Assembly: GCA_025094145.1 (NCBI GenBank)
Contig: JALLLS010000003.1
Location: 682,001-746,000, forward strand
Source of the DNA: Spinellus fusiger
Taxonomy: Eukaryota; Mucoromycota; Mucoromycetes; Mucorales; Phycomycetaceae
Length of the DNA stretch: 64,000 nucleotides
Direction of reading: 5' to 3'
Below are positions 3,612 through 47,285 of this stretch, one piece after another (within the stretch, counting starts at the first letter, position 1; each line of letters starts with the position of its first letter). A program made the position numbers and the translations under genes. The notes beneath the pieces were generated by a model. It worked only from the letters and a program-made list of their open reading frames with translations. It ran no database searches and was not told the DNA's origin.

Positions 3612-4865
3612 ATGGGCAATGAGCCCGTATTGATGGATGTAGATAAAGAATATTTTCCTCTTCAAAATATCGTAGACTACAGTACTTACTTGGACTTAAA
3701 ACCACCCGAGAAGCCTCAGCCAAAACCCAAGGCCACCAAAAAGGATACAACTTCTACTCCAGCACCCGTGTCTTACTACAAGAAACATGGTGATGATGTT
3801 AAAGGTCACTTTTCTCATCTGGTTTATGAACTAGATATGACTGCAGGTAAAGCAGCTAATCAGTTGGGTATTGCTCGTTGAACCGCATACAACTGGCTTG
3901 AAAGAGATCAGGAAAAAATCATACAAAATATGAACAGAGATCTCGAAGTTGAGCCAGTAGAGATCCCAAAAAGAGGCCGACCAGCATTATTAAATGAAGA
4001 CTATAAGAAACATCTTTCTGAAAAGTTTTTTGATCACCCTTCTGCAACGTTAGATCAAGCAATGGACAGTCTTACTGAACAGTTCAAAGACTTGAAAGTT
4101 GCCAAGACAACGGTTTACAGCTTTATGACAGAAAAGTATGCCTTGTCATTTAAGAAAGCACACCTTTATTCAAAGGAAAGAAACTCGCCTGAGAGTATCG
4201 AGAAAAGATTTGACTGGGTTATCAGATGGAACCAAACAGACATGGATTACAATAGTAACTGTGTGTTTATTGATGAGTCCGCTTTTCATATAAATCTGAA
4301 AAGAACCATGGCTTGGTCGAAGAAAGGAACCAGAGCAGAGGTTGTTCAGCCCACAACAAGAGCAGAAACAACAACAATTTTGGGAGCTATATCTTCTCGT
4401 GGCATTATTAATGTTAAAGTAAGAGTGCCTTATACTTCTTCACCAAGAAAAAGAAAAGCAAACGGAACAACCAAAATGCAGAAAACTACTGGAACAGTCA
4501 CTGGTCATTACTTTAACTTTATTGCAAGCACTTTGGATGTTTTGGATCTTTACAGTGAATTTAAAGGACATTATATAATAATGGATAATGCACCTATCCA
4601 CACAGCTGAAAGTATTAGCAGACTTATTGAAAGTCGTGGCTATGGATGTGTATACCCTCCACCCTACTCTCCTGAGCTTAACCCCGTTGAGCAATTTTGG
4701 TCTGTTGTGAAGAGTAAGCTTAAAAGAAAAAAGCTCTTAGAAAATGAGAATTTAAACATGAGGATCACTGAAGCATGTAGCAATGTTCTTATCAGTGATC
4801 TTAAGAGATTTTGTCGTTACTCTTCTTTGAAATTTAAGACATGTTTAAGTAGACATACCCTTTAA
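3612..4865 (+). pseudogene. DDE_3-type transposase of element A with one in-frame TGA
   Basis: One frame, 418 codons from the ATG at 3612 to TAA at 4863-4865, is broken only by TGA at 3879-3881 in the helix-turn-helix segment, after ANQLGIAR and before TAYNWL. The catalytic residues are visible: D in FIDESAFH, D in IIMDNAPIH, E in NPVEQFW, with 34 residues between the second D and E. That is a DD34E triad of the IS630-Tc1-mariner superfamily. MAWSKKGTRAEV is typical of the zygomycete branch. The TGA fits a CGA (Arg) codon mutated by C to T. The frame stays open upstream of 3612 into the TIR but without an ATG. Either one point mutation killed this copy or the product is made by readthrough or re-initiation at the ATG at 3930. 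Confidence 0.75.
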
Positions 4866-9585: not shown

Positions 9586-12500
9586 ATGCAGAAATCAAAC
9601 AAGAAAGCAGCAACAAAGGCTCAAGACTCAATGACGGTAACTCTATTATGAACATAAACATAAAGATAGTTCTTAAAGTACTTATGCCATATACCTTTTT
9701 AGAAACCAAATAGAAAAGGCAGAGATGGCATTATCAACCACACTCTTGGTCTTTCTACTAGAAGCAGAACTCAAATGAAGAATTCAAAAGATTCAAATGC
9801 AAGTAATGCGATAGGTTCCATGAAAACAGTGAAAAGAAGTAGAAAAGGACGAGATAACAAGCAGCAACAAGTTCTCGAGACATCAGTTATTGAATCTATT
9901 CATGATTTTAAACTGATAAAGGTCAGTGCATGTTGTTTATAAAGAATAATTACTAGAAAGAAGAGACTTATACATGAGTGCTGTGGTTGGATAGGGAGAA
10001 TATCACTACCTTGTTCATCGTAGTGGTTCTTCAGTATCTGAAAGTGTATGGGAAAAGGAGAGCTTGATTGGCTCGTGTGATGTACTGAAAAGTTTCCAAA
10101 ATAAAGTACATGTGGATTCTGGCTATTCAATGACATCAACAGATACACAGCAAAGTGTGAATCAACGACCCTCACGCGCATCAAAAATCAAAGCTGTGAT
10201 AAACATTAAAAGTACGATAAGAGACTCAATTGAGGTGGAAGAAGATAAAGTACCCTCGAAAAAGATCAAACTTGGTGATGAGGATTCAAAAAGATCTGGC
10301 AAGGGAAGTACAAACACCAAGTCAAGTCCATTGTTGAAGAAAGAGAGACAAGAGCAAGAGGAAAAAAGACAACGCGAAGAACGAAAGCAAGCACGAGCTC
10401 AAAATGAGACATTAGTTCTTGATTTGAAAGAAATGGAAGATCGAGATATTAAATGCTGTATAGTCTGTTCTATCGGTGCCTACCGAGTCGCTGTGAAGAA
10501 TAACAACATGGATGCACTACGAGAACTCTTTACTAAAAAAGATACTATTCCTATTTGGAGCGATGAAGACTGCCTTCACTATGGAGATCAAGTTCTTTCT
10601 TTGGCCATATTAAAGGGAAACGTAGATGCTGTTGAACTACTTATCAAGAACAACACCCGTGGATACATCAAAGTACCCGAGAAATATGTTAACCATCAAT
10701 CGAATACGGGTTATATTGGTATATCTACATTTGGTCATGCTATTCGGTATGTTAAAGAAGAGACACACTACTATCAATAACTTGATCTATATTAATAACC
10801 GAACTATATAGAACTGTTTCAGAATCGAGAGGTAATCGTGAAGGCGATGCAGCATTCTATAGACGCACTACGGATAATCCAATGGAGATTGATACCAACA
10901 AATGTCTGAAATCGGACATATTTGCCAAGAATATAATGTCATGCACCCACGAACTCCCATCATTGTCAGAAAGAAATATCATTGATTCCATGATGATGGC
11001 TGAACCTAATATATGGAATGGTGTGGCCATCTACTTTCTTGCAGCCTCTGGAAATTACTTGGCTACTGCAAGTATTATAGAAGGAAAGTTTGACCCAACA
11101 TGGTATAACCATCTTCATATCAGCACTCTTTCAGTAAGTCTTTTCGTCTGATCTTAATGGTGTTGGGATACAGGCTAACACAGCACTATGCTTTTCTTTC
11201 TATTAACAGTTCGTGAATAATGAGGATTTACCAACCTATCGTCGTAACCAAATCACAAAGAAACTTGTCAGCGGCGGCTCTCTTACTCCTTTGGAATGTT
11301 CTGCCATCAACCCATCTGCGAGATATCTAAAAGAACTTTTTGAAAAGGCTGAACCACATGAAAGAGTGAACCTTGATGATTATGGCCGAAATGTCTCTCA
11401 CTTTTCTGCAGCGAACGAGGCACCAGAGTGTATAGAATATCTCATTTCTCAAGGCTTCAATATGTCAACTGGTGACAAGTATCGATTGACACCACTATTA
11501 CAAGCAGCAAGATTTGGCAGACACAGAAATATAAAACCACTCTTGATGTATCTTGCCCAAGAAGAATTTCCCTCATCAGAATCTGCGGACTATACGCTTC
11601 TTTCCTCAAAAACAAGGGCACTTCACTATGCAGCCTACTATGGTCACACTGAAACTTGTCTTGCTTTGATAGAATGTGGAGCAACTATTGAAGCTGTTGA
11701 AACTAAAACAAAATCTACGCCTCTTATATTCGCAGCTCAAAGAGGTCATGTTGAATGTGTTCGTCTTTTATTGCAACGTGGTGCCAATATCGAAGCCAGA
11801 GACAAATTCTCAAGGAATCCTCTTCATTTAGCAGTAAAAAGCGGACATTACGAGGTGGTCTATCATTTGCTTGAACAAGGTGCTGATGCAAACGTTCTGG
11901 ATACTTCTTGCAATACCCCTGCTCACTATGCTGCTGCTTTTGGATATATAAAGGTGCTTCAGCTTCTTATTGTTTATGGCGGCGCAGATCCTACACTTGA
12001 GAATGCATGGAAGCGATCTCCTTGTGCTATTGCAAATCTCAAGGGACATACATCTGTTGTTCAGTACCTTCTTTCCCAAACCCATAAGATGGTGGATGTG
12101 AATTTTAAAGATGAAAATGGAAACAGTATGATTCATCAATGTGTATCCGATAAGATCCAAAGCCAAGTGGAATCTGACAATAACTTATATAAAATTCGGA
12201 TGTTGCTGATGAGAGGGGCTAATCCCAATCTTACCAACATTAAATGTAAGTAGTATATGATCTGTCTTCTTTTTTAAATACTCAAACTAAATACTGTTAT
12301 ATGTTCTTGTTTAGTGGAAACACCTTTGCACTGTCTAGCAAAAAGTCCTTATTTTAAAAACTATTTCCCAGAAAAACCGAATGGAATTTGTTTTGACGAA
12401 ATGATCGGCATTGAATACCATCAGAAATTGGTAGACATTCTTACTGGGGCTGGTGCTGATATCAACATAGAGAATCGCTATGAAGAAACACCTTTGGCAG

Positions 12501-15500
12501 TTGCAATGCACAACAAAAACCATATTGTAGTAAAAGCACTTATTCAAAAGGGTGCTCAGTATTGGATTGACAAAGATCGCTCTGGAAATAATTTCTTTCA
12601 TTATTTTCTGTCTTCTGCTGCCTTTATAGACGGTCGGCCTACTTTTATCAGTGTAAATAGGATTAGCAGAAATCGCCTTACTGAAGCACTTGAAGAAGTT
12701 TATCAGTCAGTGCTTGAACATCCCGCTGAAAAAAGTCTATTGGATGATCTGGTAGGTGGAGGTTTATTAGTAATAATAACAAGTGATGGTTCTAATAATC
12801 CTTATATTTAACTAGGCTAATGCTGTAAACGATGAAGGATATACTCCCTTTATTCAAAGTGTCTTTATGGCACTGAAATACCAAGAGGAACGTATTAGTG
12901 CAAACAAGGAGAGAGTAAAGCAGAAAGTTGTGAAACATCAAACAAAGTTGAGTCACTATATGTTTGCCACTCCAGTTGAAAGTGAAGAGAAATCAATAAC
13001 TGTTAGTTTTATATTCAATACTAAGCAATGGGTGAGTTTTTCATATTACAAGTTAATCCCATAATCTCAAATTACTTACTAAACACATTATAATTAGCTT
13101 ATCTTTGCAGAAAGATTCATTGGTCTCTGTAAATCAGACTTTAATGCCACTGTCCAGCTTCCTAAATCGTTTATGGAAGAGAATCCAAAAGCAAAGATAT
13201 CAGATTATCCCGAAAACGTAGGCTATGGTGCTTTACAGTTAGGTAAAAAATTAATTTTAAATTTTACTCCTTTATGTTGAATGATGATATTCACTTTATT
13301 GTTTTATAGCTGCTGTTGGTCAAGATGAAGAACTACTTGAGTTCCTTCTATTGCAAGGATGTGACCCCAACCAAGTCATTACTACTAAAAAATACCCTCG
13401 AGCTACTGCATTATCCATTGGATATGCTAAGAAAAGAGAGAACTTGTTGGAGTACTTGCCAGACAAAAGCTTACAAACAATCGAATATGCCAAAAAGTTA
13501 TTCAATATCAGAAAGCCTGACTTTGGTGAACTACAGTCTGACTTTGTTAAACTGTTTGCAAAATATGGAGTCAATCCTTGTATCCCAGAAAAGGAGGGTG
13601 TTACTGCTCTTATGAATTCAGCCCGAAGCTTGGACAGTACACTACTATCCTATCTCTGTGAAAGTGCTACAAATTTATCTGCTGATATTGACACAAAAGA
13701 TGATAACGAAAGAACGGCACTGATGTATGCTTTGGATGCCTTCAATGTAGCTTTCAAGTCGAATGAAAGACTAAATGATATAACGCCATTTCTTCATCTG
13801 CTATCTTCTGGTGCAAACTTTAACATGTTATACCAAGACGAAAATACTGTGCTAATGAAAGCCATTCGTGCTGGTATTCCTTGTATTGTGAATGCACTAC
13901 TTTCACACTCAAAACATCCTGTGGATTGGGACATTGAAAATAGAGGTATGCTATATACTTTTTTTACGCGTGGTATGATTCTAATATATATACTTATCAA
14001 TAGATAAAGAGACAGTATTAATTTTAGCTTTTAAGAGCAAAAATACTGATATTGTTCAAAGATGCATTGATTATGCCCTGCCTGTATTGAGAAGTAGTAT
14101 TCACATTGTCAATCACTGTGATGAACAGCAAAACAACATACTTGCACTGTCAGCAAGAAATGGATACACACACCTTGTGGCCTTACTACTCGAGTGCAAT
14201 GCAGACCCGAATATATCGAATAGCGGAAGTGACGCACTCTTTGAAGCCATAAAGAATAAACATGTTGAGATCATTGAACTCTTGTTGAAAGCAGGGGCCA
14301 ATGTTAATCAGAAGGACAGCGATGGAACATACCTATTACATCATGCTGTTAATTCTGATAAACTACTCATTGTTAAAAGTCTACTCGATTATGGAGCAGA
14401 CGTCTCTGTCAGAAACAAAAGAGGTCAGACGTCTCTTCATTTGGCAATCGAAAAAACCAAACATCATATCAATGCCTCGTTTAAGATCGAAAAGATATTA
14501 TTGGATGCTGGAGCAGATATTAATGCAGCAGATGATCTAGGTTAGTGAATCTTTTTGATGACTCCATTATAATTACTAACAAAAAATGTTATAGGCCGAG
14601 TACCACTTCATATTGCATTTACTCCTCTGAATATAATTCCACATATGCAAAAAACATTTTTTGATTATGACATATTTATCAGAGTTAAAAAGAATGATGA
14701 TGAGTTGAAGAAAAAAGAAGAAATAGTCAACCACTACACCAAGAAATATGGCTCTCGTGATTTAAAGACCAACAAATGGATTGAAGATGCCAAAAGAAAA
14801 AGTCTTACCCAGAAGGATGAATCAAAAAATATGGACGCTGAGAAATCTAAACTGGAAAGATATGGCAACTTTGAATGGGAAAGGAGTGTTGGGCCTTGTT
14901 TTAAATCTGATCATATCAATATTGTCAAGTTTCTATCTCTCTCGAAAGATATACTTTATGATATTCATGACTGTTTTGGACGCACTCCTATCCACTACTC
15001 TGCATGCACTGGTGCATTTTCGTGTACTTCTTTTCTTTTGGAAAAGGACATCAATATAGATGCCGAAGATGAAGATAAGGTAATTTCTTACATAGTCTTA
15101 TGGTTTGATTTCTAAATTATTTTTATACTACTCTTCTATAGAACACACCACTTCATTTAGCTTTGCTTTATGGCTATATTGATTACTCTATTATGCTATG
15201 CAATAGAGGTGCAAATGTCTCAAGGGATATCTTTATACCAGATGGTCAAGTTGTCACACTTATTCATTACACTCTATCAGCGGGATTCATGAATTTAGCT
15301 TACCTTATCTTGGATAAGGATATAAAGGCATTAGGTAAGTAGATTATTCTTTTGATTTATCCATATAATTTTCTAATGAACTTGCTTTTATATGTATATA
15401 GAATTTATCAGAGATGCCTTGAGAACAGGTAAATATAAATATTTTATAAATTATAATATATCTTTGCTTACAAAAACTATTTATCAAATAATAGGAAAAT

Positions 15501-18500
15501 TTGAATTAGCAGACATGTTGCTTCATTCGATAAATGACTCTACTATCCTAGAGTCAATCACAAGTGAACAACAAAATCTCTGGCACACTATTTCTTGCTT
15601 CATTCCTTATGATTTGTAAGTAGAATAATATTCAACACTCTCACTAATTATAATTAATAATGCTGACACTGATACTTTTTAGTGAGGTTTGGAATGAGTA
15701 CATTTTGGGATTTCTGGATATATTTTCAAAAGTGGATCTGAAAATGGGCTTTGATGTGTATGGACGTAGCCCAGCTCATTATGCAGCCATGAATCATCAG
15801 GAAAAAATGCTGAGTACCATCATTCAGTCAAAGTTATGTTCTTTAGGAGTAGATGATAAAGATGGAAATAGTGAATTGTATTATGCCGTACTATCAAATT
15901 CAACTGGATGTGTAAAGGTAGTTACTATATTGAAGTTTGTAGAAAAATACATGAATTACCTAACATTTCAACTCTCAAAAGATGCTGCTAGGTGCTGGTG
16001 TTTCTACGTCTCACTCTGTTGACCAAACAAGAAAATCACTTGTTCTTATGGCAACTGAACATAAGAATATTGAAATGCTAAAGATGTTACTGGACTCAGG
16101 CATAGAAGTGAGAAATGATGAGCAATTCGAGAAAGCAGGTGCCATTACTGTGGCATGTTTGAATAACACTATAGAAATATTAAAGGTATTGATATACAAA
16201 CTATATATATTTATATATATATATGTCTATAAGTCTCTTACTAATTAATTTCATTGAAAACAGCTTCTTATTCAGTCAGGAACAAACTTGGATGTTATAT
16301 CAACCATTTATACTAATGGCGGTTATAAGTATTATCATAAATGCCCACCACTATTTACTGCATCTTTTATTAATGACTTGGAGCCATTTAAGGTACATGA
16401 ATTTTGATAGAGCTCTACTGATCTAGCTGTACTTTAGATATTGCTCGAAGCAGGTGCAAATCCTAATGCCATCTCAAATTCATTCAGTTCAAAAGGTCAT
16501 ACAAAATCTCTGCTCTTTATGTCACTTTCCAACAGAGTGTGTGATGAGAAATTACATGTAAGTAAATGTGTACCAATTTACTCCTTGTTGTTGTTTTTGA
16601 AAATAAGAAGCTGATACTAAAAGATGCCTAATTTTTAGTTATTACTAAAACACAAGGTCGACCTGAATACTACTGTTGTTGATTCTCAACGTTCTATATT
16701 CTATCAGTATTACTTTGATCTGAAAAGAAAAGTAGAACACAAGGTATACATCTATTGGCTGGCTGAAACAATATATACCTACTAATAACTCATATTTCTG
16801 GATTAATAGATAATATATGAAAACATGCTTCAATATTCCTTAGTTGATATAAATGTAGTTGATTCTGTAACAAAGGCTACTCCACTGGAAATTGCGATTA
16901 GAGAAAATAATGCAATTATTGTTGAGGTAACATCTATTGATAACATGAAATATGAACAAAATACTAACCTCTCTCTATAAAAATACAATAGCGTCTTTTG
17001 GAAATCGAGGCAAACCCTAATATTGAAAGCTGTAAGGTGCTGCGTGAAAAGGAATATAGCCTTTATTCAGATAAAGTCAATGCTATATTCCACACTATTC
17101 TCCAAAACCAACCTGCTATCCTAATTCTCATTCATGAAAAGTCAAGACATCCTGTAAATTGGTTTGCTCAAGATGAACAAGGAAGAACTATTCTAGTTCG
17201 ACTTATTAATGGAACTCATGAATACTCCTACGAAAGTGAACAGATGCTCACTAATATCCATAACATTATGGGTGAAAAGTTCTTTGATTTATTGAAAATA
17301 CCCGATAATGAAGGTGTGTTATTTTGTTCTTTATCTTTTGAATAGCACTCTAAGACAATATTTATACATTCTTTATAGGAAATCTACCTTCATCCCATGC
17401 TCTATCAAGATTCTCAAATACTTTGTATAATACACTCGTTGGCTTTGGGATGCCACCTACAGAAAAGATGCTACCAAGAGACAGAATTATCCCAATGGAG
17501 ATTGACAGCTATATTTCTTTGCAAAGAGTTGAAGAAGATGCTGATGCGGAAAGAAAAAACATGCAAGATGAAAAAGACTCTCTTATGGCAGATGGAGAAA
17601 CCCACACACCAGAAGATTCACAAGTTGATGATTACTCCAACCTTCGATCTATGGGATATGTCGTTTTCTTGGATGAAAAGTTTTTGAATGTTATGCTAAG
17701 AAAGATTGACATATCTACATACTCATGGAATGTTAACATGTAAGTAAAACTATACACATTGTATTTTGAATGTCGTGATTAATAGTATTACAGGTTCTAT
17801 AAAATGTCTGTTATCTACAATATGTTACTCGATGTTTATATTCTTTGGACACGATGGGGATCATTTGGAGAAAAAGGAATGCACCAAAAAACACCATTCT
17901 TAACGAAAGAAGAAGCTGTGGCAGAGTTTAAGACTTTGTTTCGATCAAAAACTGGAAATCTTTGGGATGAAAAGGATACAAACTTTGTTCCAAAAGTTGG
18001 GCGTTATGAGCTGATGTATTTCAGAAATCCCAACAAGTATCCTATCCTGAAAAGCTTTGACTTTAATGAATCATGTGTTAAATCAACACTTCCCAGGAAT
18101 CTTAAAAACACTATGAGAATAGTGTGCGACTATGAACATCTTCAAAAAGCTTATAAACGAGTTCATTTAGATATTCATAATGGCCAAGTATCACAAAAGT
18201 CATTGGATGATGCTCTTGAAATGTTAGATAAAATTGAGAGATTAAAAGAAGAATTCCAGAAAAACTATGTCAGAAAACCACGCCATGAAAGAGAAATAGA
18301 GAAGAAAAGTAAGTCAATTATACCCTGATATATTTTTTCAAAGATTCTCTTTTCGCTACAATTACTAAATTATTTTGAAACTTAGAACTTGATAAAGAGA
18401 TTGCAGAATTAAGCACTGCTTGTTATCGTATACTACCTCGAATGAGCAGCCAAAACGGTGTTATAGACTCACTTAAAAATGAAGATCATATGTCGTTGGA

Positions 18501-19974
18501 AATTGCCAAAATCGCTGATCTATCCTATCTCAATTTTGCTGCTAATGTTGCATTGGCGGCCAAGCATCATAAATCCGAAATATATCCTCTTGATTATGTA
18601 TATCAGGCCCTTGGATGTTCATTGCAAGAGATTACTGCTGATGGACCCTCTGGCAGAGAATATAATTTAATCAGAAACTATATGACATCCACCTCTTATA
18701 AGGCCGATTACGAAATAACTCATCTATTTTCGGTCGATCGTCAAATAGAAAGACAAAGATTTTCACCTTTTGAAAACAATCCAAATCGTAAACTTCTCTG
18801 GCATGGATCAAATGTTGGCAATATTGTTGGAATTCTTAATCAAGGTCTACGATGCAAACCAGCATCGGCAGATGAACATGTAAGTTTCATTTCTATTATT
18901 TCAATGGGAAACAAACATGAACATAGCTCTAACATTATGTTTTAGGGATCAATGTTTGGAAGAGGAATATATTTTGCTGATATGTTCTGTAAATCAATTA
19001 ACTATTCGAACACTGAAGACACTCTCTCTGATAATGCATATAGTATCTTGTTGCTTTGCGAAGTAGCTCTAGGAGAAGAATGCTCAATGATAAATTATTA
19101 CCCACACACCTTTGAAAAGGAGAAAGGTCATATGTCGATCAAAGGACTAGGAAAATACCATCCTGATCCTAAAAACACTGTATGCGATGAAAGTGGGGTA
19201 TGCATTTTATATTTTTATATAGACAGAATAACTTCAAGATTTTATGATGCTTACAAAGAATATACAATCCTTAGATGTTTATCCCACTCGGACCATCGGT
19301 GGCCAGAACTTTAGAAGAAACCTCCTACATCAACTATGATGAATATATTGTCCATGATGCTGCACAAGTAAAAATACGGTATCTTGTCTTGGTAAAGAAC
19401 AGCAAGTGCTGTTCTTTATGCCAAAAAAGCTTTGAAAAATCAGAAATCAAGCCTTTAAAGAACTACATGCTAAGAAACTACGATTACAGCTTATTCAATG
19501 AATATGAGACAGAGATTCTGAAATTACTATTGATAACAACTGATATGAAACTAAAGCAAGTATTCGATCGATATTTGGATGAGTTCATTGATGGTGAAGA
19601 ATATTGTAAGTAGCTGATACTATTTCTGCGTACAATTGAAAAGATTTCTCATGTAAATGTTTATTTGTAGTGAAAAAATGGAATCCTCTTGTGGGATTTT
19701 CAGCTGAGAACAACACTTGTTCAAATTGTTCAGATTTGGTCGCTGCAATGACACTAATGAAGTATGTGGAATCAAGTATTGAACATATACCTGGTAAGCA
19801 GAAAATTCATTTTTTCAACTTGACATAAATAAACATAGATTTCTAATGATTTTATGTATTTCAGATGATATTCTTAACAAACCTATCTGTAAATATGGAA
19901 AAGAATGCCGTACAAAAGAAAATATCAATCATGCAAAGAAATATCAGCATTGGTTAAACGAAAAAAAAGACTGA
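9586..19974 (+). CDS. Chromodomain-ankyrin-WGR-PARP-PBZ protein (poly(ADP-ribose) polymerase), 2,864 aa
   Basis: Twenty-eight exons join in frame: 9586-9636, 9703-9921, 9995-10746, 10812-11133, 11210-12245, 12315-12751, 12816-13031, 13098-13242, 13310-13945, 14004-14540, 14595-15079, 15142-15334, 15402-15428, 15495-15615, 15683-15917, 15982-16185, 16264-16392, 16438-16557, 16639-16743, 16810-16926, 16992-17313, 17379-17739, 17794-18308, 18386-18879, 18946-19197, 19275-19605, 19671-19793, 19865-19974. The intron before 15495 is itself in frame and may be retained. Domains: chromodomain-like about 74-125 (GEYHYLV, then SVWEKESLI); charged coil about 200-245; ankyrin repeats from about 500 to 2000; WGR about 2235-2335, with WGS at 2278-2280; PARP regulatory domain; catalytic domain with the H-Y-E triad H2568 (LLWHGS), Y2602 (GRGIYFAD), E2700 (YDEYIVHD), so polymerase activity is predicted. 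The tail has C2723xxC2726, C2804xxC2807 and a PBZ finger at 2837-2857 (CKYGKEC, then H and H). Probably nuclear, modifying chromatin proteins at DNA damage. Exon ends are by eye. Confidence 0.85.
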
Positions 19975-20046
19975 TGATCAATCTGAAGAATTTAATGCCT
20001 AATTTTATTTATTGAGAATCTGTAACTTAAACACTGTAGTTTAATA

Positions 20047-20111
20047 TGCCTATGCCTATGCTTATGCTTATGCTTATGCTTATGCTTTATCATTATCATT
20101 ATCATTATCAT

Positions 20112-20160
<49 letters not shown>
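20047..20160. repeat. Compound microsatellite 3' of the PARP gene
   Basis: Successive runs of TATGCC/TATGCT hexamers, then ATTATC hexamers, then (TAA)n, starting about 70 bp after the stop codon, so probably in the 3' UTR. Confidence 0.9.
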
Positions 20161-20246
20161 TTTTAATGCTCTTATATCAACCATTTTTAAGGGAAAAAAG
20201 TCTATTTAGTTCAAGAATATGAGAAATAGTAAAAATATGTAATATA

Positions 20247-41825: not shown

Positions 41826-44800
41826 TTATTGCTCATCATTCAATTCCAAATCCTCATACCTGGGTCCTTGATGAATACCACTGACTGCCATGTCCTTACG
41901 TGTCTGAAGATAAGCAAATGTAGTGTGGAAATGGTTGCTCACAAAACTAGCAGCGGGACCTGTTCGTTCTGTAATAGAAGAGGATCTGGAAGCAGGAGGG
42001 TGCTGGTCAGGATCCTTCATGTTGCTTAGATTGGTGTTGATCAGATCAATAAGACCATTGAGATATTTGGCAGTAACCTAACACATTGCCCTTTTCAATA
42101 TATGCTTCTTCTTCTTATCACTTACTGCCTCATTGCCCATTTCAAAGTAGTAAATATAACGGTTCAATATCTCAACAAAGAGTTCGACAGTAGTGATAGT
42201 ATCCATACAACTATCAGCAATCTTTAGGGCCTTTTGTAAACATTCAAGAGCTTTTTTGCCATTCTGAAGTATTTCTTTCTCTTGCGATCCTTTCTCTCTC
42301 TCTGCTGCCCACCAAAGATGGGAGCTCAAATAGACAGCTCTGCATTGGTCAGGTCTTTTGAGCAGCTTAGAGCTATGGAGAGTTGCCTTTGTAATCAATG
42401 TATCGTAATTGTCTACTGAAAATACACTTGTTTGTTGGAGAGTGCCTATAATAGACGTAATGGCCTCCAGCTGTGCTTTGGAGTCAGAGATAGATTCCTC
42501 GTAAATAGTGAATGCTTCTACAAAGAACTCATAGGCAATTTCTTCAAATCCAATCTCATCTGCACTCTGGCCTGCCAAGAGAAAAAGGTGTAGACATAGA
42601 GTAGCGCACTCATATTGATGAAGCGTAGAAATGACTTGATGAATAAACCTAAACAATGTAGCTGTTTTTGATTCCCATGCTTCGTTCTAGTTGTGTTAAT
42701 AGATCTTTCTACGGCGACTTACATGCTCCAGTGACTTGTAGCGTCTTGCTAGAGTGATGGATGCAGTGACAAGAGATGGGTAGGTATAACGAATACGCTG
42801 TCCTCCCTTACTAAATTGTTTTCTTGCTGAAGAGAGAAGCTATCTCTGTGAATACACATCTAGTAAATAGGACTTACTAGTAACTGAGTGTCTTCACTGT
42901 CAGACTGAAAGAGATGCACCAGCTTGGCCATCCACCTCTGTTTTTCTACAAACTCCTCATGTTCTGTGCTATCTGAAAAATTATTACGATCGTTGTAGAG
43001 AGGAGAGTTAGGACTGGTAGGCACATCCTTCTGATCCTGCACAAGAACATTGCACAGTTCAAGCACGTCCTGGATATTCTCTGGTGTGCTAATTTCTGTC
43101 TTCTTTCGTAGTAAGCTAGCAAGAAGAGCATGGGCTACTGTGCGGCGGGTAGTAAAGGGCTGGATGGCCAGAAGGGGTTGATAGTGTTTGAAGGAAAGGA
43201 GGGTGAGGATAGAGCCATAGTGAGTTACAGGAGAAAGTAAGAGAGCAAGTAAATTGGCTTCTGTTGTCTTGTCAAGAAGATGAGGAGAGTCAGACAATTT
43301 CACTAAAATCTCTTTACAGTAGGCAAGAATCTGTTCAACATAATCCAGCTTCTCAGGATAGCAGGAGAGAGACAGGTTAATTAATGACACAAGTAGACCT
43401 GTTAAGTCTTGGATAGAAAGATCAGGTCGAGCCTATGTTCGTTCCAGCAGAGTTCAACAGAGAAAGAAATTCACAACAAATGTTAATGTTAATGTTATTA
43501 TTATTATTATTATTGTTATTATTATTATCATTATTATTAAAAGAGTCCTCATTCTCTTTTTTTTTCTTTTTTTTTCTTTTGGTATATTTACCTGTACTAA
43601 TTCCACAATCTGTCCCCAGAACACTACAAATAGCTCAATGTCTTGAGGAATACCGCGTACTTTCTTCACATTTTCCTGCTGAACTTCTTTGCCTTGTTCT
43701 TCAGTGTCTTGTGTTATTTCTGTTTCTTGATTGAAGTCATTGAGAACATCCTCCTTGGATTCATCATTCTGTTCTTCTACTACTTCAGTCTCTTCCTTTT
43801 CTTCTTCCGCAGGTTCTTCTGATGGTTCCTTCACAGGTTCTTCCTTTTCTTCCTCCACAGGTTTTTCCGATGGTTCCTCCACGGCTTCCTCCACTGGCCC
43901 CTCGCTTTCTTCCTCTGATTCACGATTAGCATAGGCAGCCAATCGATCAATCAATGAAATGATAATCTGCTTCACATTCACTTTGGGATGCAATTGAGCA
44001 GTTGCAGACAAAAAGGGTTGCAGAGTTCTCAAATGGAAATCATCAGGAAACACCTATACACTGTATAAAAAGAGCATTCATGACCCCCTTCTTTACCTGA
44101 GTAATCACTTCCATAAGGTATTCCTGAGCAATGACATCACGGCAGCTCACGACTTGATCCAATATTCCTGGCAATATGTCCTGTACTGCTTTATACTACT
44201 ATTAGCCTACAAAAAGACCTACTGTTTGATACACAGCAAGATCCACGCCTTCCAGATGACTCAATCTCACGAGATTGGTGCCTACAAGAATCTTCAACTC
44301 CTTGCGTTCTGCTTCTCTTCTCTCTCTTTCTCTCGAGTGTCCTTGGTGCTGAAGACGCACCCATAACTTGTTCATCTCAGTGAAATTGGTAAGGACAAAA
44401 GCAATAGAATCATGGACATTGCCTTGAGGTCTAGTATAACCAATGAATTCAAGCCAACAACAACATTCCATCTTTTTACCCAGTGCTTTCTCCCAGTGGC
44501 AGATGGTCTCGGGTCATTCCACTCAGGTAGTGTCGAAGGAAGAGACCGCGTATAGGATGTTGTACTCCTTTAGTCATCTCCATCATATCTCGCATGATCT
44601 CACGCACAGGAGCTTTGGGCACACTCATATAAGCAGCGCCCACAGTAATCATAAGGTAGAGACGAGGGACAATATTGCCCGCATACTGTACTAGTTCATA
44701 CAGGTCAGCCAAGTGGTGGCGGTCTGCCGAGTGGGCTTCTATAAGGTACACCGTCAAGTGTCTTAATGCGTCAAATATTGCCATATCTAGGTATCTTGTT

Positions 44801-45462: not shown

Positions 45463-45558
45463 CTGAAGGTTGTTGTTGTTTTTTCCTCTTGCCATTCTCT
45501 CTTTCAGAAACAAGCAACAACAAAAGAGTGACAAAGAAAAGATATACTCCTATCAAAC

Positions 45559-47285
45559 ATGGACCCAAGTCAGTTGGAGGAACCCGATGAGGCACTGCGC
45601 CAACAACTGCTCAGTACTATACCCCACTTTGAAGATATTTACATTTCCAACGAGAACATTACAGCATTACCCCAGGGAAGAAAACCCGACACCCTGAGGA
45701 GACTAGCCACAGAGAGCCACCAAGACACCCTCCACCGAAAGGACGATGGAGAAGCACGGTTTCGTCAGGCACTAGAAACCATGGATACTATGGAAGACCC
45801 CCTTGATGTTTATCTAAAACACATTGCATGGATAGACCAAGTCTACCTCCAGGGCAACCAACACCAAAGCCCACTCAATGATACCCTTAAAATGGCTGTC
45901 CATCGATTTGAGGATGAAGAAAAGTACAAACACGATCTACGATTCCTTCGTTGTTGGTTGCGGTTGGCTAGTTTACAGGAAGACCCACAGAAAATATACC
46001 TTTATCTTATTCATAAAAAAATTGGACAGACATCAGCGTTATTCTATGTAGAGTATTGCAAGTATTATGCAAAACGGAAAAAGTACACAGAGGCAGGCAA
46101 GGTATTAGAATCAGGAATCAACAATAGTGCAGTGCCAATGAAAATGCTGGAAAAGGCACGGGCGGCATTGGAGGCAGAGATAGAGCAGTCACAGCCATCT
46201 CCTTCCTCAACAGAGCTGCACCAAGAACGTATGCGGGATTTGGCAAAGCATGGAAGGAGCATTCTCGGTGTTATTTATGATGCGTCCAAACCCACGGGCA
46301 GAGGTGTGGGTGTGAGTGGATCCAATAGATTGAGTGGATTGGGTGCAGGTGGATTGGGCAGACTCAACCCACCCCGTACACCGCTTGGACTCGGCTCAAG
46401 GAAACGCACACTCACACCCCATACATCTATGCCTGTGTTCAATGATACAGACAGAACACCAGAACCCACTCTTCCTCCACCACAGACTACACTCAACCTC
46501 ACACCACCCAAAACAACAGAAAACAAAATAGCATCAGAACCCATGCAGGGTGCCATTCTCAAATCAAGGCCCTGTAAGAAACCAAAAAAAGACACATTTG
46601 TAGTCTACAGAGATACGGTAAGCCCCATTCTCTCACGGGAAGAAAGAGAAAGAATAGGAAAAATAAACACAGCTGATGGGTGGAAACAATAGCCAGTGTC
46701 GGGATCCACTTTGCCTTCTCCTGCAAAGAGTAGTAAAATCCCCCTCCCCATCTCACGCAAAGAAGCAGAAGAGTTGCGGTATATGCAGTACAGATTCAAC
46801 CGTATTAAAGTGCTCTGTCCCAAGAGTGCTGATTCCCAGGGCAACATTGAATATGTCTCTCATATTATGGACCACCCCAATCCCAATCTAATGAGCAGTT
46901 GTGATGAGATCCGTGCTAGGGTATATATCAACCAGAGTAAGTGGGAGGAGCATAAACACTCTACTAAGAAGGAATGTGGTTAGGTGAGAAGCTGAACCGG
47001 ATGTATTCTGAGGAACATACATGCGACTTAACCACAGAAACAAGAGCAGCAATAAAAGAAGTCAAGCCCATGCTGGCCCGTCTTTCGAGCAGTGCTTTCA
47101 AGCTTACTCTACCAGCAGAAGAGAAGTATGACTATAAGCAGTGGGTGCAGCAGCAGGAGGAAATGCGCCGTATGAGAAAGACAACCAATGAAAATGAGGA
47201 CGGTTTGCCTGTTGAGTCTGGCTCTGATATGTCACTGGTTGCATTTGAAGAGACTGAGGAAAGAGAAAAGAAGCAGTCACGATAG
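45559..47285 (+). CDS. MAD3: Mad3/BubR1-like spindle checkpoint protein (no kinase domain), 534 aa
   Basis: Exons 45559-46617, 46693-46936 and 46984-47285 join in frame. The N-terminal Mad3/BUB1 TPR region spans about residues 25-205: TALPQGRK, then DPLDVYLKHIAWIDQVY, LRFLRCWLRLASL and GQTSALFYVEYCKYYAKRKK. A Pro/Thr-rich linker follows, then FVVYRDT and SCDEIRARVY, matching the conserved middle segment of Bub1/Mad3 proteins. No kinase domain is present, so Mad3 rather than Bub1 is favoured. Mad3 binds Cdc20 and inhibits the anaphase-promoting complex until chromosomes attach. Odd feature: the usual KEN box before the TPRs reads NEN (N31-E32-N33), and no KEN occurs elsewhere in the model. The gene is divergent from VPS35. 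A T-rich 3' end with TTATTC repeats follows. Confidence 0.88.

Follow-up and report, generated by a model that had tools for sequence, protein, structure and literature searches.

CHFR is a ubiquitin ligase with the domain order FHA-RING-CRD-PBZ, CRD being a cysteine-rich domain, and in PARP1 and PARP2 the WGR and helical domains link DNA ends to enzyme activity. In mammals, CHFR is a reader of poly(ADP-ribose) (PAR) and binds PARylated PARP1 via its PBZ (PMC4741567; papers cited by PMC number are represented here by excerpts, to which our statements on them refer). The Clade 1A PARPs, with the architecture Ank-WGR-PRD-PARP (ankyrin repeats, WGR, regulatory domain, catalytic domain), are described from amoebae, fungi and a ciliate (PMC2964712). 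Here we analysed a stretch of 64,000 nucleotides (64 kb) from the fungus Spinellus fusiger, hereafter the window, in which a gene at 9586..19974 of the forward strand encodes a PARP of this type, apparently extended at its C terminus by a CRD-PBZ tail resembling that of CHFR.

The ankyrin array, WGR, regulatory and catalytic domains of this protein are shared with the Clade 1A PARPs (Dictyostelium, fungal and Paramecium), with Dictyostelium ADPRT3 and with C. elegans PME-5, but the excerpts mention neither a chromodomain-like N terminus nor a C-terminal CRD-PBZ for any of them (PMC2964712, PMC4245714). PARP and PBZ occur in one protein in Entamoeba, Capsaspora and the lancelet, for which the excerpt mentions no CRD or chromodomain (PMC4245714). 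Tankyrase (Clade 4) shares an ankyrin array and PARP, whereas the Spinellus protein carries WGR and PARP_reg instead of SAM; a Pfam scan of residues 2137-2864 gave no SAM at E 0.01, and the identification as a tankyrase is ruled out since no SAM lies between ankyrins and PARP.

An earlier reading of the locus, made from the sequence only, had proposed a single chain with a chromodomain-like N terminus, ankyrins, WGR, a full H-Y-E polymerase site and a C-terminal PBZ. All of these, together with the regulatory domain, were recovered by Pfam or profile searches and by alignment to PARP1, the Chromo profile being borderline. That reading also knew of no fungal protein with this order. In part this does not stand, the Ank-WGR-PRD-PARP core, the combination of PARP with PBZ and a fungal PBZ each being published (PMC2964712, PMC4245714, PMC6264785, PMC10665377). 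The apparent novelty lies in a CHFR-type CRD-PBZ tail attached to a PARP, of which our searches of open PMC papers gave no description, and in its spread over early-diverging fungi.

We favour, with moderate confidence, the view that this is one real gene, a Clade-1A-type PARP of early-diverging fungi, and that its product is most likely a DNA-break-activated PAR polymerase with a built-in PAR reader. In such an enzyme the WGR would sense DNA ends and relieve the helical domain, and the catalytic domain would modify with PAR both the protein itself and partners bound to its ankyrin array, which is very long. The CRD would position the PBZ near the catalytic domain, where the PBZ could bind PAR made by the same or a neighbouring molecule; such binding would hold the enzyme at the lesion, promote clustering or the growth of chains, and give local amplification of the signal. 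The features on which this view rests are as follows, the Pfam scores for WGR, PARP_reg, PARP and PBZ being those of the spliced C-terminal 728 residues (2137-2864):

9586..19974, + strand: whole gene, 28 exons, PARP of 2,864 residues (exon table, translation, orthologues P0002-P0016)
10460..17389, + strand: ankyrin-repeat array, about residues 246-2140, exons 3-22 (Pfam Ank_2 on exon pieces, best E 2.7e-50; Pfam lists of orthologues)
17687..17977, + strand: WGR domain, residues 2240-2318, spanning intron 17740-17793 (PF05406, 61.7 bits, cut-off 22)
18083..18603, + strand: PARP regulatory (helical) domain, residues 2354-2501, spanning intron 18309-18385 (PF02877, 40.7 bits, cut-off 26.8)
18655..19397, + strand: PARP catalytic domain, residues 2519-2718 (PF00644, 182.1 bits, cut-off 26.7)
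18802..18804, + strand: catalytic His, H2568 (alignment to PARP1)
18970..18972, + strand: catalytic Tyr, Y2602, exon 25, skipped in the deposited model P0001 (alignment to PARP1)
19341..19343, + strand: catalytic Glu, E2700 (alignment to PARP1)
19398..19768, + strand: putative CHFR-type cysteine-rich domain (zf-CRD-like), residues 2719-2820 (PF17979, 20.5 bits, below the cut-off of 26.3; invariant columns; hhalign 82%)
19888..19950, + strand: PBZ zinc finger C2837-C2843-H2851-H2857, exon 28 (PF10283, above cut-off)

The WGR-to-PARP part aligns to human PARP1 structures with E 2.5e-57, and H2568, Y2602 and E2700 correspond to the PARP1 triad, the H-Y-E site being intact; E2700 occupies the position of the Glu that we take to be required for polymerase activity in PARP1. 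H-Y-E is complete in 21 of the 22 listed proteins that carry the tail, the exception being P0001, whose model omits the exon concerned.

The CRD-PBZ tail

PARP and PBZ are separated by some 100 residues that contain two CxxC pairs and make up a putative cysteine-rich domain, not noticed in the sequence-only reading. Its cysteines C2723, C2726, C2804 and C2807 are invariant in all 14 tails that we aligned. Pfam zf-CRD (PF17979), the cysteine-rich domain of CHFR, a link borne out by the PDB profile match given below, is found at E 1 or better in 12 of these 14 tails; it passes the cut-off in three orthologues (P0004, P0016 and P0104) and stays below it in the others scanned singly.

We searched the PDB with a profile of the 14 tails and observed that the C-terminal region of human CHFR came first (E 3.4e-8, profile positions 41-150 of 153), a single alignment taking in the PBZ and the later portion of the CRD. 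With hhalign, the comparison to human CHFR gave 97.8% for the stretch 41-150, against 82% for the CRD part alone. Conversely, the CRD stretch of human CHFR scored 14.8 bits against the family profile, a value reached by none of 2000 shuffles (best shuffle, 6.4). CHFR (2xoc, 2xoy, 2xoz, 2xp0) and the fungal tails share the order CRD then PBZ and a PBZ core of the form C-R-T-[QK] and H-A-x-K-[FY]-x-H. Unlike that of CHFR, the Spinellus tail sits on a PARP catalytic domain, and the first 40 positions of the tail profile, including the first CxxC pair, are unmatched in CHFR. No FHA or RING is present in the Pfam lists of P0001-P0016 or of the Spinellus pieces scanned. We conclude from these comparisons that CRD and PBZ are, as a unit, homologous to those of CHFR; for the CRD taken alone our confidence is moderate. 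Given the zf-CRD and CHFR matches, we reject the idea that the segment linking the two domains is an unrelated zinc knuckle. A region search for CHFR-like relatives with the Basidiobolus tail returned only itself among 53 candidates.

The PBZ scores 25.8-31.7 bits over all Pfam scans of the Spinellus protein (25.8 in the spliced 728 residues; cut-off 22.7), with C2H2 ligands and a C-x-[FYW]-G-x2-C core, and its pattern occurs once in the six frames of the window. All four zinc ligands are kept in the 13 complete tails, with stretched spacing in P0013, and the Tyr-Gly of C-x-Y-G in 10 of them. The Spinellus finger has the best Pfam E-value among the 14 tails and outscores two further tails scanned, and the core of the Basidiobolus finger is CHFR-like (C-W-Y-G-x2-C-R-T-Q).

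Several observations weigh against a PAR-reading, DNA-activated enzyme. The WGR motif reads W-G-S, Ser replacing Arg, and the coupling of this domain to DNA may thus differ from that of PARP1. By itself the CRD of the Spinellus protein stays at 20.5 bits against the Pfam cut-off of 26.3, a scan of the spliced 728 residues at E 0.01 does not report zf-CRD, and a CRD-only profile retrieves CHFR from the PDB with just E 0.17, behind a designed protein. The PBZ is found by Pfam at E 1 or better in 8 of the 14 tails (P0011 and P0012 stop before it) and is not found in P0104. Since its core is degenerate in P0008 from Absidia (Gly kept), P0013 from Cunninghamella and P0015 from Halteromyces, some lineages may do without PAR reading. 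Finally, each chain has one PBZ, in contrast to the paired PBZ of APLF, in which two working modules bind PAR more than 1000-fold tighter than one; a single PBZ is able to contact two neighbouring ADP-riboses (PMC4030884).

In the strongest alternative, to which we give about one chance in four, the tail would be a zinc-built protein-protein module, docking for example a ubiquitin ligase or some other factor of DNA repair, with PBZ-PAR binding weak or lost and no PAR reading in most species. The loss of Tyr-Gly in 3 of the 13 complete tails while the zinc ligands stay, the CRD cysteines invariant in 14 of 14 tails and the single PBZ all fit such a module. However, the C-x-Y-G-x2-C core kept in the other 10, the rank of the Spinellus PBZ in Pfam and the CHFR-like core in Basidiobolus argue against it.

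Distribution of the tail and the PAR system of the genome

The sequence-only reading had proposed a search of other Mucoromycota, and the same domain order was indeed found in independent orthologues of several genera. Our protein set comprised 224 sequences (103 and, from a second search that found 152, the 120 that were listed, together with the spliced protein), and the counts given here hold among the matches listed. The tail profile matches at least 22 of the 224 proteins at E <1e-5; it was built from 14 of the 22, P0001, P0007, P0104-P0107, P0109 and P0112 not being among the builders. Tail proteins come from Spinellus (the gene and its deposited copy), Phycomyces (2), Apophysomyces (2), Phascolomyces, Fennellomyces, Absidia, Mucor, Mycotypha, Sporodiniella, Cokeromyces, Cunninghamella, Halteromyces, Rhizopus, Circinella and Syncephalastrum, from Basidiobolus, from the chytrids Dinochytrium and Fimicolochytrium, and from a metagenome (P0112). 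An isolated fungal oddity is thus rejected, with orthologues in many genera of Mucorales, Basidiobolus and chytrids. Nine tail proteins are incomplete: eight stop in or just past the CRD, and P0016, whose record is labelled partial, stops within the PBZ.

We built a FastTree tree of 154 PARPs from the WGR-to-PARP part only, leaving the tail out. A single clade of 27 tips (SH-like support 0.97) contains all 22 listed tail proteins, whether their tail is whole or partial, with the chytrids and Basidiobolus beside the Mucorales. The five tips of the clade without a tail (P0108, P0110, P0111, P0115 and P0118) end before it would start. The profile gave no match in the other 127 tips, which include Batrachochytrium, relatives of Mortierella, and animal and oomycete Ank-WGR-PARPs, apart from values at chance level outside the clade (P0187, E 0.08; P0125, E 0.1); 118 of these 127 tips extend at least to where the catalytic domain ends, and only 7 of the 118 continue beyond it for at least 30 residues. 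Since the listed tail proteins share one clade and the other tips have no match, the tail is most simply taken as ancestral to this fungal clade. The fungal Ank-WGR PARPs group together, and no named Dictyostelium reference is among the tips.

These results bear on two published claims. Clade 1 PARPs were scored in Rhizopus oryzae and Mucor circinelloides, presumably as members of Clade 1A, and none in Phycomyces blakesleeanus (PMC2964712). Our set contains P0003, named as Phycomyces blakesleeanus, an orthologue with a PBZ, which contradicts the absence of PARP from this species as stated in the excerpt. The other claim is that no PBZ can be found in Fungi (PMC4245714); as far as the excerpts go, it was already contradicted, because a Mortierella ligase carries one (PMC6264785, PMC10665377).

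We also looked for the components of a PAR system in the Spinellus genome (38 Mb) by six-frame, exon-wise searches, whose counts are lower bounds. One PARP locus was found, the 9586..19974 gene, and one PBZ above cut-off, that of the same gene, with a weaker match of 15.6 bits elsewhere. The macrodomain gave no match in the genome, the same search matching in 8 of 14 control genomes; PARG gave no match in the genome or in the controls, so its absence is not shown, and the same applies to a genome search for zf-CRD, without a match in the controls included. One ADP-ribosylglycohydrolase-like gene (PF03747) lies on contig C148 at 164711-166082, and its C-terminal piece reads GGAADANG at the site where we assume GGDxDT to be the motif of metal-binding ARH enzymes; the only eraser-like gene found may therefore lack the usual metal ligands. 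In a published survey, Mucor circinelloides and Rhizopus delemar had no obvious PARG, and some Mucorales had the macrodomain eraser TARG1 (PMC4245714).

A wider proposal, which we put forward tentatively and regard as rather less probable than the enzyme reading above, is that a PAR writer and the PAR-reading tail of CHFR underwent an ancestral fusion in early-diverging fungi, a 'Rosetta stone' for the CHFR-PARP1 partnership. As its genome yielded a single PARP, a single PBZ above cut-off and neither a PARG nor a macrodomain match, the protein might be the whole PAR system there, reading its own product to give a self-amplifying and self-retaining signal. The fusion of a CHFR-like CRD-PBZ to PARP in Mucorales, Basidiobolus and chytrids suggests that the CHFR-PARP partnership is old. 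The gene could offer a single-protein system for testing writer-reader feedback, of interest to specialists of PAR and of fungal DNA repair.

The chromodomain-like N terminus

The N-terminal part ahead of the ankyrin array contains two further features:

9586..9873, + strand: basic, Lys/Arg-rich N-terminal extension, residues 1-74, exons 1-2, with intron 9637-9702 (translation)
9874..10132, + strand: chromodomain-like module, residues 75-136, spanning intron 9922-9994 (Pfam Chromo, PDB profile, alignment)

The region of the start Met resembles the 'MKQSKK' of P0002. Pfam Chromo gives the module 25.9 bits with tight bounds and 24.5 with wider bounds, for a cut-off of 25.1, and matches 5 of 8 members at E 1 or better (P0004 has no match with wider bounds). 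A profile of the eight N-terminal modules retrieved from the PDB CDY1 (E 1.9e-8), MPP8 (3.3e-8) and then CBX7, a similarity to HP1/CDY/MPP8 chromodomains that extends over about 50 residues. A chromodomain-like fold is therefore likely. The module's own profile finds 9 proteins, all from Mucorales, 8 of which built it; several other orthologue models begin downstream of the module. No match to the chromodomain profile and no Pfam reader domain above cut-off were found in the N termini (about 100 residues) of P0017, P0018, P0021 and P0028, which are animal, oomycete and JGI Ank-WGR-PARPs.

One could suppose that this module is a true reader of histone methyl-lysine which takes the PARP to heterochromatin, as the match to HP1-type profiles (best E 1.9e-8) and the later Trp with its flanking hydrophobics, kept in 8 of 8 members or nearly, would allow. 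We consider this improbable. In the alignment to HP1 and MPP8, the positions that we take to be those of the three-residue aromatic cage are S78, R99 and S102, all non-aromatic in the Spinellus protein, and the full cage is present in 0 of 8 aligned members: the first position is never aromatic, the second is Arg in 6, the exceptions being P0004, which has Leu, and P0013, which is ambiguous, and the third is aromatic in P0009 only. An HP1-type methyl-lysine reader is rejected on this absence, methyl-lysine reading via the usual cage is not likely, and a chromatin-reading role is unsupported because the three positions are non-aromatic. Docking of a protein or a nucleic acid appears more likely for this module than reading of H3K9me. 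The sequence-only reading had linked chromatin reading, PAR synthesis and PAR binding in one chain; the link between writer and reader is plausible, while a role in chromatin reading by the classical route is not supported.

In the Spinellus genome we counted 35 chromodomain matches, 27 of them above cut-off, spread over contigs as would be expected of chromodomain-bearing retrotransposons. The other 8 fall short of the cut-off, one of them being exon 3 of the PARP gene at 21.4 bits.

Gene model, deposited copy and surroundings

When rebuilt from the raw sequence, the gene gave exactly the numbers of the sequence-only reading, 28 exons in frame making 8,595 nt, that is 2,864 residues plus a stop, with 0 internal stops. 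It starts with an ATG at 9586 and ends with a TGA at 19974, and the 27 introns (45-81 nt) are all GT-AG with junctions in phase. Judged by codon bias against the rest of the gene, exons 2, 3, 26, 27 and 28 read best in the joined frame compared with the other two, and exon 1 (51 nt) leaves the frame undecided. Both gene ends, doubted earlier, are supported, since homology spans their junctions: that of exons 2 and 3 falls inside the chromodomain-like stretch, whose own profile matches the spliced protein and 8 orthologues, 9 proteins in all, and the two flanks of that of exons 27 and 28 adjoin likewise in orthologues and in human CHFR.

P0001, a protein deposited for Spinellus fusiger, derives from this gene: exact matches to the spliced protein, all colinear, cover 2218 of its 2219 letters, and the two are at a tree distance of 0.00. 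Its model starts at residue 262, without residues 1-261, and omits, among other stretches, 2257-2334, where most of WGR lies, 2594-2677, which correspond to exon 25 and include the catalytic Tyr, and exon 28 with the PBZ. It is plainly incomplete, because the exon of the catalytic Tyr and most of WGR are skipped as well; it is clear from the DNA that the model just failed to include the last exon, and omissions of this kind may be why the tail escaped notice elsewhere. That the terminal exons belong to other transcripts, the protein being an ordinary Clade 1A Ank-WGR-PARP, could find support in P0001 lacking residues 1-261 and the PBZ exon, but it is very improbable in view of this incompleteness, the domain order shared by independent orthologues, the codon bias of exons 2, 3 and 26-28 and the in-phase GT-AG junctions.

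A further feature was recorded next to the ankyrin array:

10454..10468, + strand: C-C-x2-C motif, residues 244-248, just ahead of the ankyrin array (translation, pattern)

This pattern is present in 13 of 21 proteins checked (the spliced protein, P0001-P0016 and P0104-P0107), and a similar-looking stretch occurs in the eukaryote protein P0020. Directly past the stop codon of the PARP gene, at about 20044-20165 of the window, simple repeats follow, first ATGCTT units and then ATC and ATA runs. Upstream of the gene there is an open frame for a DDE_3 transposase (3882-4865), and the neighbouring genes include a Vps35 retromer gene on the reverse strand (42078-42686) and a Mad3/BUB1 spindle-checkpoint gene on the forward strand (45532-46692).

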